A DNA stretch of 64,000 bases from assembly GCF_019084045.1 (NCBI RefSeq), contig NZ_JAHRED010000004.1:1-64000 (forward strand), given 5' to 3'. A model generated the notes under the pieces. It had not been told where the DNA came from. It ran no database searches and saw nothing but the letters and a program-made list of their open reading frames with translations. The DNA is from Paeniglutamicibacter quisquiliarum (lineage in GTDB: Bacteria > Actinomycetota > Actinomycetes > Actinomycetales > Micrococcaceae). Made by a program: the position numbers and the translations under genes. Shown piece by piece: positions 2,935-21,453 of the stretch (positions within the stretch are counted from its first letter, which is position 1; each line of letters begins with the position of its first letter).

Positions 2935-2975
2935 ACTCCAAGCCTACCAGCGGAGGCCCCGGATCCGGAGTCTCG

Positions 2976-3869
2976 CTACTGTTTTTCGAAAGTGCCATTC
3001 CCGCGCGGGATCTCGCCGGCCTCGGCGTTCTTCACTGTTCCTGCAGACGCATGCCCGCCGGTGCGGCGCACTGCGGCACGGAGCCACCAGGCCAGCAGGA
3101 ATGCGCCGACCAAGGCGGTCCAGGCCCACGATGGAACAGCTGCGTCCAGTTGCCTGCCCACGTTTTCCACCGCCGCAATCATGTTCCTGGGCAACAGCTC
3201 CGGAACGGCCGCCATGCCATTGGTGAAGATCATCAGCCACCCGACGACCACGGTAATCGCACCCATCAACAGGGAAGTCGTGTGCAGGCGCAACCTGCCG
3301 ACCGTGAGCTGGCGTCCCCTCATCCAACCCACCGAGCGGTGGCCCAGCCTGCGGATCACCAAGGCAATCAACATGATCGGCAAGACCATCCCCACCCCGT
3401 AGAGCCCCAAGAGCGTCCCGCCCCGGGCCGGGCTCGAGGAGGTTAGCGCCAGGGTGAGGATCGCACCCAGCACCGGGCCGGTACAAAACCCTGCCACGCC
3501 GGAGACCGAACCCAGGACGAAGGTCCTGGCCAGGGACCCGACCGCGGGGCGGGGTTTGCCCGGCAGAAGCCGGGTGAAATCGATTCCGCCGCCCCCGGCT
3601 GTCAGCAGTCCCAGGGCAATGAGCACCCACCCGGCGCCGTTGAGCAACAGCCCGCGGTCGAGAACAATGGTTCCGCCCAGCCACCCCAGCCCCAGTCCGA
3701 GCGGTACCAGTGTGGCGAGCAAGCCAGCCAGGAAAGTGGTGCCCAAGCCCAGCAACCTAGCACGGGAGGTGGAGATGGTGGCGAAGAACGCGGGCAACAG
3801 CAATGCGTTGCAAGGGCTGAAGACCCCAAGCATTCCGCCAATCAGTGCGTATCCGAGCCCGACGTCCAT
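2976..3869 (-). CDS. ccdA: CcdA/DsbD-type thiol-disulfide membrane transporter
   Basis: Polytopic membrane protein (297 aa) that would carry reducing equivalents from cytoplasmic thioredoxin to extracytoplasmic thiol proteins. The family signature is present: one cysteine in the first helix (GVFSPCNALLLP) and a second in SGVAGFCTGPVLGAIL, the pair that shuttles electrons. Six or more hydrophobic helices are visible, with a short polar C-terminal tail. It starts 18 bases after the DsbA-like gene ends, so the two form an operon. Whether it serves cytochrome c maturation or only the DsbA-like partner cannot be told; no resA or ccsA gene is in the window. Confidence 0.85.
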   Translation of the reverse strand: MDVGLGYALIGGMLGVFSPCNALLLPAFFATISTSRARLLGLGTTFLAGLLATLVPLGLGLGWLGGTIVLDRGLLLNGAGWVLIALGLLTAGGGGIDFTRLLPGKPRPAVGSLARTFVLGSVSGVAGFCTGPVLGAILTLALTSSSPARGGTLLGLYGVGMVLPIMLIALVIRRLGHRSVGWMRGRQLTVGRLRLHTTSLLMGAITVVVGWLMIFTNGMAAVPELLPRNMIAAVENVGRQLDAAVPSWAWTALVGAFLLAWWLRAAVRRTGGHASAGTVKNAEAGEIPRGNGTFEKQ

Positions 3870-3887
3870 CGTTTGCCCCGCCCTGGC

Positions 3888-4625
3888 CTAGCGGGCGAGT
3901 TCTTCGTCAATGGTTTGCACGAAGACTTCCAGCGGCTGGGCGCCGATCAACGGGCGGCCATTGACGATGAAGGTCGGGGTTCCGGTGACGCCCAGGGCGC
4001 CGGCCTCGTCGTGGTTCTTCTGCACCAGGGCCGCGGTGTCGGCGTGCGCCGCGTCTGCCGTGAATTGCTTGGCTTCGACTCCGATGCGCCCGGCCAATGC
4101 CGCAATGCCCTTGGCGGAGTAGTCTGCGTCCTTCGCGGTGGCCCCTTCGGCGAAGATCGCGTCATGGAATTCCTGGTACTTGCCCTGCTTGCCGGCCGCG
4201 ACGGCCAGCTCCGCGCTCTGGCGCGAATTCTCACCGAAGAACATGATGTCGCGGTACTCAATGCGAAGCTGTCCCCCGGCCACGTACTTGTCCAGGAGGG
4301 TGGGCAACGATTCGGATGCCCACTTGGCGCAGTAGCCGCATTGGTAGTCGGAATAGGCGACCATGACAACCGGTGCCTCGAGCTCGCCGACCGCCGTGGG
4401 GTCATTTGCATCCCGCCGTTCCACGTTGATCCGCTGCTGGGCCTCCGCGGGTTCAGCCTGGACCGGGCTCGGGTCCTGCTGCGCAACAGCGGCCGCCGGG
4501 GACGCATCGCCCGGTGCGGCAATTTGCATGCCAATCACGATTCCCAGTCCCAGGGCCACCGGGATGGGGAGGATCCAAAACCACGGCAGTCTCGGCCGGG
4601 TGGGTGTTGCAGGGGATTCCGTCAT
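3888..4625 (-). CDS. DsbA-family membrane-anchored thiol-disulfide oxidoreductase
   Basis: An N-terminal transmembrane anchor (WILPIPVALGLGIVIGM) after a short Pro-rich cytoplasmic segment is followed by a thioredoxin-fold DsbA domain. The redox motif is CGYC (C96, C99) after YSDYQ, and the cis-proline loop is GTPTFIVNGRP. The protein would act outside the membrane on disulfides of secreted proteins, with the adjacent CcdA-like protein as likely electron donor. ATG 4625 is chosen because AAGGAA lies upstream; an in-frame ATG at 4673 has no ribosome site. Confidence 0.85.
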   Translation of the reverse strand: MTESPATPTRPRLPWFWILPIPVALGLGIVIGMQIAAPGDASPAAAVAQQDPSPVQAEPAEAQQRINVERRDANDPTAVGELEAPVVMVAYSDYQCGYCAKWASESLPTLLDKYVAGGQLRIEYRDIMFFGENSRQSAELAVAAGKQGKYQEFHDAIFAEGATAKDADYSAKGIAALAGRIGVEAKQFTADAAHADTAALVQKNHDEAGALGVTGTPTFIVNGRPLIGAQPLEVFVQTIDEELAR

Positions 4626-16835: not shown

Positions 16836-18005
16836 ATGTCGAAATCGAAGCCTGCCAGCAACAAGTCGCGCGGAGGGCACCCCGCCCGTAGTTCGGGCGC
16901 GGGCGCATCCAAGTTTGAGAACCAAGTGCGTACCGCGATGCGTCCGTATCTGGCCCAGTTGCGTGCCTTCTTCAACCAGCGTCACGACGCGGCCGACACG
17001 GAGGCCGGCATCGAAGGGCTCGTGACCCTGCTGACCGTCCACTCGCGGCTGCGCGGCAAGGTTGCGGCATCCGAACTCGACCACGAGGCGCTGGCAATCC
17101 AGTTCGGGGACCTGCGCGCCATCGGTGACGAGGTTGCCGTTGCCTGCGCCTCAATGCTGCGGGAATTCGTGCTATTCCTGGCCGAAAGTGGCCGCTGGTC
17201 CGGCTCCGTGGAGGGATTCAAGTCGGTCTTCGACTTGATTTCCGCCCAGGGCGGCGAGTCCCCCGTGGTGGTCCCCGAGCTTGATGAAGCCGGCGCGGAT
17301 TCCCGCTGGGCCAAGTTGCCCATGGTTTCCACCGCTCGGGCATTGCTGGCCTGGGTTGGCGAGGGCCGCGAAGTGCGGCCGGATGGCTCATTGTTGGATG
17401 CGGACCTGGTCGCGGCCGCCGCGGCCGTGGGCCTCAAGGTCCAGCACGACCCCGGGGCCGAGGCCGTGCGGCTGCCTTGGGAACCGGAGGCCGAAGCCGC
17501 TGTCGCCACCCTCGCGCAGCTGCCAAAGCTGGATGCCTACTGGAATGCGTTGTTGCGGGCCGGCCTGCTGACCAACCAGCGGGGCAAGGCGGTGCCGACC
17601 CCGGTGGTGAGCGAGGCGCTGCATGCCGATTCGGGGTTCAGCGCCCGCGGAGTGAAGGACCTGATTGCCGAAGGGCTCTACGCCCACATCCTGCTCCATG
17701 CGGTGGGACCCGAGAACGACAACACCGTGACGCAAATGGCTGCCGCGTTGCTGGGCAAGGCCGGATCGGCGAATCCCCCGCGCACCGAAGTCGCGTTCGC
17801 GGTTCCTGCCCCCGGGGAGCTTGAGCCGGAGCAAGCCCATCTGCAGCCGCTCTTTGCAAGGACCGTCCCCGCTGCCGAGTCGCTGCTCCGCGCCGCGGAA
17901 TCCGAGGGACTGGTCCGCATCGGCAAGCACGTTCGGGTGCCGCGCGTCTTGCGTGCTCCCCTGGAACGTGCGCTGACACGGGTGGCCGAGGAAATCCTGG
18001 CCTAG
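16836..18005 (+). CDS. Uncharacterised protein, family A member 1
   Basis: I do not recognise a characterised family. The 389 residues start with a basic Ser/Gly-rich tail, then an all-helical block ending GRWSGSVEGF, a repeat-like unit ALLAWVGEGREVRPDGSLLD, the segment LDAYWNALLRAGLL, and a C-terminal EGLVRIGKHVRVPRVLRAPL. These four landmarks recur in the same order in the gene at 26613-27857, so the two are remote paralogues. The WVGEGR unit also resembles repeats in pRiA4b-ORF3-type proteins. It lies directly downstream of the SNF2 helicase and is probably co-transcribed. A GGGGGA element precedes ATG 16836. Confidence 0.75.
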   Translation: MSKSKPASNKSRGGHPARSSGAGASKFENQVRTAMRPYLAQLRAFFNQRHDAADTEAGIEGLVTLLTVHSRLRGKVAASELDHEALAIQFGDLRAIGDEVAVACASMLREFVLFLAESGRWSGSVEGFKSVFDLISAQGGESPVVVPELDEAGADSRWAKLPMVSTARALLAWVGEGREVRPDGSLLDADLVAAAAAVGLKVQHDPGAEAVRLPWEPEAEAAVATLAQLPKLDAYWNALLRAGLLTNQRGKAVPTPVVSEALHADSGFSARGVKDLIAEGLYAHILLHAVGPENDNTVTQMAAALLGKAGSANPPRTEVAFAVPAPGELEPEQAHLQPLFARTVPAAESLLRAAESEGLVRIGKHVRVPRVLRAPLERALTRVAEEILA

Positions 18006-19161: not shown

Positions 19162-20439
19162 CTAATGATCGGAAGGTTCGGATACTTCCTCGGGAGACTT
19201 CTGGCCCCCGTCGATGATGGCGGCCGGCAGCTCGGCGCGAACCACCCAGTCGCCGCGGACGCGCTTGGCAGAGAGGGTCCCCCCGAACGCCGCCATGCGG
19301 TCTGACATGCCCACGATTCCGGAGCTGTGCCCACCACTGTCAAACCCCTGGTCCACAACGTGTCGGGGCAACTTGTTGGCGACTTCCAGCCACACCCTGT
19401 CACCGACGACGAGGGCCTCAATGCGGCACGACGCATCCCGTTCGGCGTGCTTGACGATGTTCGTCGTGGATTCCTGCAGGACCCGGTAAAGTGCGGCCTG
19501 GGCAGACTGGGGCAAGCCGGCAAGCTTCGGGTCGGCCATGGTCTTCGTTGGATGGCCAAGGTCGACCAATCTCTCGGCAAAGATTTCAACGCCAATGAGA
19601 ATTTCCAGGCTACTGGCAGCATTCTCCGCAGGATCGACGAGCGAGCCGTCCACACGGGTCGTCGGACCGTCGGATCGCAGCACATTGAGCATGACGCGCA
19701 GGTCCTGGAGGGCCTCTTTCGACGTGGCGCCGATGACCTTGAGCGCGGCCTGGGCAACCGCCGGGTCCCCGGAAAAGCCGGCAGCCTTGGCCTGCATGGA
19801 AATCACCGTGATGTCATGGGCGACGATATCGTGCAGGTCCCTGGCAATGGCCTTGCGCTCGGCTTCGACGGCTTCCTGCTGCTTGCGGCGCAGCTCCTCA
19901 ATGCGTTTCCTGTCGGCTTCGCGCTGTTCCTGGTACTTCCGCGCGAAAAGGGCTACGAGGTAAGCGGCGGCGACCAAGGGAATGATGATGATCAAGAAGC
20001 CCACGTCGTAGGACCTGACGACGACGATCAGGATTGGCCACAGGCCAGTGATGCATAGATACCGGAACGAGAACTTACGAGTCTCCGTCAGGGTAACTAT
20101 TCCAACCAAGAGAGGAACAATAAGAAGCGCGACCAAATAGGCGCCGGTGAAAGCCGCCAGCGTCATTGCCACGATGGAAACAAAGACCGCATATCGCGTG
20201 CGAACCCACAAAAGTCCGAGCGCAAGAGCGAAAGCCGCATTGACGAAGACTTCGATTGCACGATCATGGAACTTTACGGGATCGGACTCACTGATCAAGC
20301 TGACAATGTCCGTAATTAGCAATAACGCGACAACGCCGCTCGCAACTAGGAGAATCTTCCTCCCCAATGTGGAGGAAGATTGCTCACTAGTAGCGTCGGG
20401 GGCAGAAACGAATCGGTTCACCGATCCATTCTCACCCAT
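19162..20439 (-). CDS. Sensor histidine kinase, NarL/DesK type
   Basis: 425 residues. The N-terminal 165 residues form about six membrane helices with short loops and no large sensor domain. A coiled linker (READRKRIEELRRKQQEAVE) leads to the HisKA_3 dimerisation block ARDLHDIVAHDITVIS with phospho-acceptor H203. The ATPase domain has TTNIVKHAERD (N box) and SSGIVGMSDRM (G box). It should phosphorylate the divergent LuxR-type regulator at 20782. A 66-residue secreted-peptide gene lies 31 bases upstream on the same strand. Base composition is visibly lower in GC than the flanking genes, hinting at transfer. Confidence 0.9.
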   Translation of the reverse strand: MGENGSVNRFVSAPDATSEQSSSTLGRKILLVASGVVALLLITDIVSLISESDPVKFHDRAIEVFVNAAFALALGLLWVRTRYAVFVSIVAMTLAAFTGAYLVALLIVPLLVGIVTLTETRKFSFRYLCITGLWPILIVVVRSYDVGFLIIIIPLVAAAYLVALFARKYQEQREADRKRIEELRRKQQEAVEAERKAIARDLHDIVAHDITVISMQAKAAGFSGDPAVAQAALKVIGATSKEALQDLRVMLNVLRSDGPTTRVDGSLVDPAENAASSLEILIGVEIFAERLVDLGHPTKTMADPKLAGLPQSAQAALYRVLQESTTNIVKHAERDASCRIEALVVGDRVWLEVANKLPRHVVDQGFDSGGHSSGIVGMSDRMAAFGGTLSAKRVRGDWVVRAELPAAIIDGGQKSPEEVSEPSDH

Positions 20440-20444
20440 AGAGA

Positions 20445-20464
20445 GGACTCATTCTTTTGAGTCC
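20445..20464 (-). promoter_or_regulatory. Small inverted repeat between peptide and kinase genes
   Basis: On the minus strand GGACTC and GAGTCC flank the eight bases AAAAGAAT, ending six bases before the kinase start. A 6-bp stem here could reduce kinase translation relative to the peptide. Short repeats like this can also be chance. Confidence 0.3.
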
Positions 20465-20470
20465 CCCTTT

Positions 20471-20671
20471 CTACCTAGGGCATGCTGCACCGAAGTATCG
20501 GCACAGCCAGTCGTTGAACGCATCTGAAGCGCCAGCAGGTGAAGCAACTGGCATTGAGCTGCCCTGGGACAGAGAACCGGGAGCCGTGGCTGCCTGGGCA
20601 GGAATGGCGGCCGGCAGCAACAAGGCAGCGGACATGGTAACAGCGGCGAAAATACGAGTTTTGCGAGTCAT
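20471..20671 (-). CDS. Small secreted peptide with C-terminal Cys pair
   Basis: 66 residues. A basic start (MTRKTR), a hydrophobic core and the AQAA site make a clear signal peptide, leaving a mature peptide of about 38 residues. A Ser/Pro/Gly-rich stretch is followed by DAFNDWLCRYFGAACPR with C57 and C64, which could close an eight-residue disulfide loop. It sits immediately upstream of the kinase gene and is divergent from the regulator gene, the position expected of a signal or accessory peptide. Family unknown; the receptor link is inference. The ribosome site is weak. Confidence 0.65.
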   Translation of the reverse strand: MTRKTRIFAAVTMSAALLLPAAIPAQAATAPGSLSQGSSMPVASPAGASDAFNDWLCRYFGAACPR

Positions 20672-20781
20672 GAGGCCTATTCTTGCATCTATTTCATTAA
20701 GTCAACAGATACTTTTAGTGAAACTTTTGAAGTCGGTCAGCCCCTGCGCCGATTTCGCCAAAGGTCACTAGACTCGAAACC

Positions 20782-21453
20782 GTGACTGATATCCAAGTTC
20801 TCGTGGTTGATAACGAACCCCTCATGCGTCAAGCCCTCAAAATAATTCTTGAAGCCGCCCCGGGGTTCCACTGGCTTGGGGACGCGACAAACGGCATAGA
20901 AGCCGTGGATTTCTGCGCGGGCAACAGCCCTGACGTCATACTCATGGACATGCAGATGCCTCGCATGGACGGGGTTGAAGCGACCGCAATCATCACCACG
21001 AACTACCCGGATATTGGCGTGCTGGCCATAACCGCGTTCTCCTCGGAAGAATATTTGGTCCCGGCCCTACGCGCCGGGGCCGCTGGGTACTTGGTCAAGG
21101 ACGCAGAACCCACGGAAATCCTTGCTGCAATTCGGGCGGTGCACGACGGCAGCGCCGCCATTTCGGCGTCGGTATCGCAGGACCTCATCCGCGCAGTCCG
21201 AAATGGCTACGACATTAAACCGACTAGCGCTAGCCGACAGAGCCCCATGCCCTTGTCCGAACGAGAATTGGAAGTCCTGCAACTGCTCGCTCGAGGTTAT
21301 AACAATCCGGAAATTGCTGCCGAGTTGCATGTCTCCGAGGCCACCGTCAAGGCCCATCTGAGCCGTGTGATGGCAAAATTTGGCGTCCGGGACAGGGTTC
21401 AGGCCCTAATCCGAGCAGCACAGTACGGCCTTGTCGAACTACATATGGATTGA
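20782..21453 (+). CDS. LuxR/NarL-family response regulator
   Basis: 223 residues. The receiver begins VLVVDNEPLMRQAL, has phospho-acceptor D56 in ILMDMQMPRMDG, the switch threonine in LAITAFSS and the lysine in GYLVKDAEP. The usual second acidic residue of the metal pocket is Asn (D10-N11-E12), a tolerated variant. The C-terminal HTH reads LSERELEVLQLLARGYNNPE followed by VSEATVKAHLSRVMAKFG. It is divergent from the peptide-kinase pair, with 110 bases between. The start is GTG with no ribosome site in front, so the mRNA may be leaderless. Confidence 0.92.
   Translation: MTDIQVLVVDNEPLMRQALKIILEAAPGFHWLGDATNGIEAVDFCAGNSPDVILMDMQMPRMDGVEATAIITTNYPDIGVLAITAFSSEEYLVPALRAGAAGYLVKDAEPTEILAAIRAVHDGSAAISASVSQDLIRAVRNGYDIKPTSASRQSPMPLSERELEVLQLLARGYNNPEIAAELHVSEATVKAHLSRVMAKFGVRDRVQALIRAAQYGLVELHMD

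Follow-up and report, generated by a model that had tools for sequence, protein, structure and literature searches.

In Paeniglutamicibacter quisquiliarum, a gene for a small secreted peptide ending in a pair of cysteines lies between a six-helix membrane histidine kinase and a divergently transcribed LuxR-type regulator, and a small secreted gene accompanies one group of kinases in nine genera of the Micrococcaceae (labelled g1, g23, g4, g27, g15, g6, g31, g24 and g13, g1 being Paeniglutamicibacter). The trio keeps its gene order, the precursor is of the secretion type and under purifying selection, its linkage to the kinase is of long standing and its loop has diversified between genera. It is likely that the three genes form a peptide signalling cassette, with the secreted Cys-loop peptide serving as the autoinducer for the adjacent kinase. 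Unless a locus is named, coordinates refer to the window, the whole 64,000-nucleotide stretch of P. quisquiliarum DNA that was analysed.

The peptide gene occupies 20471..20671 on the reverse strand and encodes, from an ATG start, a precursor of 66 residues with orthologues in each of the 15 genomes sampled from the genus. The precursor comprises a Sec-type signal peptide, a variable linker and the tail DAFNDWLCRYFGAACPR. The signal peptide, predicted from the sequence pattern and a script of our own, covers about residues 1-28 (20588..20671, reverse strand), with cleavage predicted near AQA-A. An alignment of 25 peptides delimits a conserved core, ASPAG...DWLCRYFGAAC, at residues 43-64 (20480..20545, reverse strand), in which G47, W55, C57, G61 and C64 are invariant. 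C57 and C64 are seven positions apart, with six residues between them (C-x6-C). A preliminary description of the locus had reported a 66-residue gene with a signal peptide and two cysteines at this distance, placed 31 bases upstream of the kinase and divergent from the regulator, and the reading frames bear this out: the peptide stop codon ends at 20471 and the longest kinase frame begins with an ATG at 20439, giving a gap of 31 bp. The AlphaFold model of the peptide is of low confidence (mean pLDDT 55.9) and places a helix at residues 45-60. Searches of Pfam, NCBIfam, PADLOC, PHROGs and PDB sequences gave no convincing family match, the best PHROGs hit having an E-value of 0.023 in a library without a cut-off, and the plasmid records searched contained no match to the gene.

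The kinase (19162..20439, reverse strand; 425 residues) has a DesK-type core, as judged by Pfam, an AlphaFold model and comparison with the PDB. Pfam recognises HisKA_3 (E 4e-17) and, below its cut-off, HATPase_c (E 2e-4). The model, built from an alignment of 10 sequences (mean pLDDT 62.8), has a membrane part of six helices, at residues 23-49, 54-79, 81-98, 101-118, 123-141 and from 146 onward, where the last continues into the kinase helix. Neither Pfam nor the model revealed an extracytoplasmic or other sensor domain, in keeping with the earlier claim of six membrane helices as the sole sensor. Among solved structures the core is closest to DesK, both by sequence (best E 5e-8) and by fold. 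The probable start of the kinase is a GTG at 20421 and not the ATG at 20439, as relatives align from about that point and differ before it; such a start, suggested by the alignment, would widen the gap between peptide and kinase to 49 bp. On the other side of the peptide gene, a response regulator of the LuxR/NarL type (20782..21453, forward strand; 223 residues) carries the Pfam domains Response_reg and GerE, which confirms the divergent arrangement. The stretch between them, 20672..20781, is the putative shared divergent promoter region.

Within Paeniglutamicibacter, the gene was recovered from all 15 genomes (E 6.5e-39 to 9.6e-8) with frame and tail preserved, and each time it is flanked by a kinase frame and, in the position of the regulator, by a divergent frame. 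Residues N53, D54, W55, C57, R58, G61, A62 and C64 are unchanged over the 15 sequences, and the linker varies in both length and sequence. The two cysteines, whose conservation the preliminary description had proposed to examine, are thus kept throughout the genus, as they are in distant relatives. Estimates of dN/dS from 14 genes (91 pairs) are 0.047 for the 20 codons that end at C64 and 0.161 for the signal peptide, both rough values with synonymous sites near saturation. Since the tail is nearly constant inside the genus, any species specificity there would be weak. Nine of the loci holding the gene belong to records of five Paeniglutamicibacter species, three strains labelled Arthrobacter and one Micrococcaceae MAG. 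A chance reading frame is ruled out by the conservation in 15 of 15 genomes, the low dN/dS and the background count given below.

A profile built from the 25 peptides was run on 395 genomes of the family, of which 182 match at E 0.05 or better. Only full-length matches with E below 1e-6 were counted, and these occur in 40 genomes from five genera (15 in g1, 18 in g23, one in g4, two in g27 and four in g15); most of the uncounted matches listed, together with order-level matches outside the family, cover mainly the signal-peptide part. One match in the tail region, in genome G215 (L144), was rejected, because a frame of 1268 residues spans its site on the opposite strand. At all 40 counted loci, a kinase frame follows the peptide and an opposite-strand frame stands at the regulator's place, the former being found in all 38 loci scripted and in the window. 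At L141 and L143 the script motif missed the regulator, and Pfam confirms one of the LuxR type. All 40 loci also have an adjoining match to the kinase membrane domain, a partly circular count, as 19 of these kinases built that profile. The peptides share the motif A/V-S/T-P/T-x-G, about nine residues, W-x-C-x-x-aromatic-G-x-x-C and then 0-4 residues, the script having allowed no more. The cysteines belonged to the search pattern of the 38-locus count, and four other positions, which did not, are nevertheless conserved: -10 is Gly in 38 of 38 loci, -2 (two residues before the first Cys) is aromatic in 35 (Trp in 28, Phe or Tyr in 7), +3 is Tyr, Phe, Leu or Trp in all 38 and +4 is Gly in 35. The loop residues differ between genera and the Cys pair is constant.

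An independent search used the kinase as bait, with a profile of the membrane region only of 19 kinases run against 390 family genomes. At E 1e-12 or better it returned 76 matches in 74 genomes, 40 of them the loci already known. All 36 further loci were examined, and in 22 a small secreted ORF ending in C-x5..8-C directly precedes the kinase; 21 of these were detected by script and one (L215) by eye. The automatic filter required a signal peptide and C-x4..8-C within 4 residues of the ORF end, and over 466,124 bp in 34 stretches it selected one ORF besides 33 cassette peptides. Of the 22, 21 have a divergent LuxR-type regulator frame; at L214 (genome G122), peptide and kinase are present and the divergent gene (2961-3998, forward strand) encodes a HAD-type hydrolase, not a regulator. 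The tails include FWCMTFGFFC in g4, RIFCERWGLFCG and GFCTVFPFMCDER in g15, YVVCGWWPAICR and ICYYVPFWC in g6, YLCRFVDWC in g31 and FLCRWVSWC in g24. Some g6 precursors have no more than about 15 residues after the signal site, for example APRYVVCGWWPAICR at L217, and this remainder looks like a finished peptide signal.

The remaining 14 of the 36 loci, all in genus g13 (L193-L195, L197-L200, L202, L204, L206, L208 and L211-L213), have no small secreted ORF by filter or inspection. The regulator frame is found in 13 of them, all but L204. In the ten that were measured, the longest regulator and kinase frames start less than 90 bp apart or overlap, so that there is little room for a peptide gene. 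The g13 genomes G228 and G275 also carry a second kinase with a candidate peptide, whose tail in G275 is FFCQYVDPFYCD. The preliminary description had suggested looking for the same small gene beside orthologous kinases in other Micrococcaceae, and had regarded orthologues lacking it as evidence against its reading; the gene recurs across the nine genera, and kinases without it were confined in this search to the 14 more distant g13 loci. In a tree of 71 kinases, 58 with a peptide and 13 without are split by one branch with 100/99 support, in a data set from which 7 loci were not extracted, in which L215 and L223 were labelled by eye and in which some long branches are unsure. Peptide presence needs a single change on this tree, the 13 peptide-less g13 kinases forming one clade; because the root is unknown, gain and loss of the peptide are not separable. 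The membrane-domain search and the tree together show that the peptide gene has been linked to a receptor-type kinase over long evolutionary time.

The sensor region of the kinase diverges faster than its partners. Within three genera its divergence is 1.7 to 4.2 times that of the kinase core or the regulator (0.48, against 0.18-0.28 for the core and 0.12-0.24 for the regulator). Partial Mantel tests on 38 of 52 loci gave r 0.49 between peptide and kinase-core distances and r 0.12 between peptide and sensor distances, the latter reached by 1.9% of permutations, and did not show that peptide and sensor co-evolve beyond what their common history explains.

Outside the trio, the genes change between genera, so the trio is inherited as a unit and its surroundings name no target. 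Of the loci compared, 9 of 11 in the genus have a BCCT transporter cluster on the regulator side, and all 9 in g23 have a Clp ATPase cluster there, both defined by gene clusters with Pfam run on one member each. On the kinase side lies a gene for a 389-residue protein without a Pfam match (16836-18005, forward strand), whose cluster, c2, is kept in 17 of 21 loci and stays near the cassette in two genera while other neighbours change. Across the 21 loci compared, the trio has no transporter, immunity or modification gene as a constant companion. By Pfam, neither an isoprenyl transferase/polyprenyl synthetase nor AgrB occurs among six neighbours in the window and nine at the g23 locus L079; neighbours at other loci were compared by gene clusters only.

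Non-coding elements have also been detected around the peptide gene. In 12 of 14 aligned genus loci, a TTGACTT box is conserved 28-34 nt ahead of the peptide ATG. In ten g23 loci (L036 and L038-L046), a 12-nt block, AAGTATATAAGT, is invariant (10/10) at about 20-35 nt before the peptide start, and is a candidate promoter or regulator site; no regulator site was seen by eye in the promoter alignments. The mRNA spacer between peptide and kinase contains a predicted hairpin (20442..20467, reverse strand); for 9 of its 11 pairs, both bases are changed with pairing retained in one or more of 13 genus sequences. The window spacer folds at -15.3 kcal/mol, compared with -8.3 in shuffles (z -3.24), and seven copies from the genus gave z of -3.2 to -6.6. 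Among the ten g23 loci folded, the hairpin is less strong or not clear, and G002 has a different one; strong folds are also seen in several g4 and g15 spacers, as judged from the folds themselves. This element may hold kinase expression below that of the peptide, protect the peptide mRNA or act in the manner of CutF, as considered below.

In the proposed mechanism, the small gene would give a Sec precursor from which signal peptidase frees a short peptide with a C-terminal C-x6-C core, in which a disulfide probably forms once outside the cell. The six-helix kinase would sense this peptide in the membrane and phosphorylate the divergent NarL/LuxR-type regulator, which would act on the shared promoter (autoregulation) and on further targets. 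Processing, binding to the kinase, autoinduction and a sensing of cell density are steps that we infer from the layout, which is itself observed, and the peptide is probably a chemical signal detected by the adjacent kinase. Such a pheromone reading is suggested by the Sec precursor, the tiny mature part, the fixed Cys pair, the varying loop, the receptor-like kinase with its membrane-only sensor, which diverges faster than the core, and the one-to-one linkage, a combination that is the usual look of peptide pheromone systems. The preliminary description had proposed a peptide signal or accessory sensor on the basis of position; the long-term linkage strengthens that proposal, and the ligand role continues to be one that we infer. 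Counting against a ligand are the Mantel result, the near-constant tail within the genus, the hairpin, the changing neighbours that point to no target, the 14 g13 kinases and L214.

Other roles for the peptide have been weighed against the same data. Small secreted Cys peptides are often bacteriocins, and 5 of the 25 peptides touch the lactococcin 972 model, which would fit an antimicrobial or other effector whose production is merely controlled by the kinase-regulator pair. The best of these matches (E 0.0015) reaches 18.8 bits, however, below the TIGR01653 cut-off of 32.1 bits for membership of that family, and the matches begin at the signal peptide and stop before the first Cys. As no transporter, immunity or modification gene regularly accompanies the trio at the 21 loci examined and the one-to-one linkage to a sensor suits a ligand better, an effector is very unlikely. 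The DesK-like core and the restriction of the sensor to membrane helices would also suit an envelope-stress or DesK-like membrane sensor, modulated within the same cell by its exported partner as an accessory subunit or redox switch and not by a signal between cells; a subunit or switch need not vary its loop between genera as is seen here, and this role is considered unlikely.

The strongest mechanistic rival is cis translational control, in which export or stalling of the nascent peptide would open the spacer hairpin and set kinase translation, the peptide being a by-product. Two features, a small upstream Sec protein carrying a Cys pair and, in the genus, a covarying hairpin before the kinase, recall cutF-cutO as far as the available part of its description goes (PMC9973294). 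Nonetheless, the Cys pair is followed by only 0-4 residues and would not yet have left the ribosome at termination, and for this reason such control is rated as quite unlikely. The peptide also has no proline-rich end, its loop residues vary between genera, and the hairpin is weaker or less clear in the ten g23 loci and differs in G002. If the peptide is indeed a signal for the kinase, then signal, receptor and regulator are encoded together in a cassette that is compact and predictable, and peptides of this length can be synthesised, making cell-cell communication in these bacteria directly testable.

Related kinases have been detected beyond the family with a broader membrane-region profile of 23 kinases. 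Matches were found in 11 of 258 genomes of the order, four of them from the family and including the window's own, and in one of 138 genomes of the class, the window itself. Seven loci come from other families (L221-L224 and L226-L228). L221 passes the automatic peptide filter, and at L223 a secreted-type ORF ending in CKRLGLFC was recognised by eye. At L222 (1285-1395), L226 (1289-1417) and L227 (1353-1445), a very small ORF that lacks a signal peptide and ends in C-x5-C, with a Trp close before it, lies between a divergent regulator-like frame and the kinase frame. No peptide-like ORF was seen at L224 or L228, nor at L225 from the family genus g31. Outside the cassettes, the 466 kb of background contain 26 instances of a loose Trp-Cys-Cys pattern, or about 0.006 per 200 bp of one strand; at this rate, three leaderless ORFs at the expected position are unlikely to have arisen by chance, and any one of them means little. 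A search of 13 genomes of its genus with the L227 peptide returned the peptide itself and one weak match, L230 (E 0.54), where an ORF ending in EWLCQIMGICA (1456-1560, reverse complement) is followed by a long frame that is kinase-like by appearance. A leaderless branch in other Micrococcales families is therefore a possible lead and not a result. There is about an even chance that these peptides represent a Cys-loop pheromone "language", a large and fast-diversifying family that is exported through Sec in Micrococcaceae, each member with its own multi-helix kinase and no dedicated processing enzyme, and that is apparently leaderless in two further families of the Micrococcales, with PTWLCEVFGICD as an example of the tail.

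Most known cases of peptide quorum sensing through membrane kinases come from Firmicutes. The titles and abstract starts of the open-licence texts listed, most subscription papers being outside this scope, contained no description of the peptide family and none of such a signalling system for Micrococcaceae. The Agr system likewise joins a small cyclic peptide to a multi-helix receptor kinase, with a thiolactone, an HPK10 kinase and a LytTR regulator; the cassette differs in its possible disulfide, its HisKA_3 kinase and LuxR-type regulator, and in having no AgrB-like protease among the neighbours tested (six in the window, nine at L079). DesK-DesR resembles the cassette in its kinase core and membrane-only sensor, and to our knowledge DesK has no peptide partner. 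CutF-CutO of Rhodobacter, in the part of its description available (PMC9973294), also combines an exported small Cys protein with a spacer hairpin before the downstream gene, which encodes a metal oxidase there and a kinase here; in the cassette the Cys pair lies at the extreme end, with no proline-rich stall motif after it. The closest known system in layout is ComX-ComP-ComA. ComA of Bacillus is a NarL/LuxR-type regulator, and the cassette has in common with that system a Trp near the peptide C-terminus and a multi-helix HisKA_3 kinase paired with a LuxR/NarL-type regulator. It differs in its Sec signal peptide, its fixed Cys pair, its divergent regulator and the absence of a ComQ-like gene among the same tested neighbours. 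The portion available of the comQXPA census (PMC4008528) places no locus outside Firmicutes, and describes there a precursor that is short and variable and has a Trp close to its C-terminus, encoded next to a multi-helix HisKA_3 (PF07730) kinase whose membrane domain varies, features that the Micrococcaceae cassette has as well.
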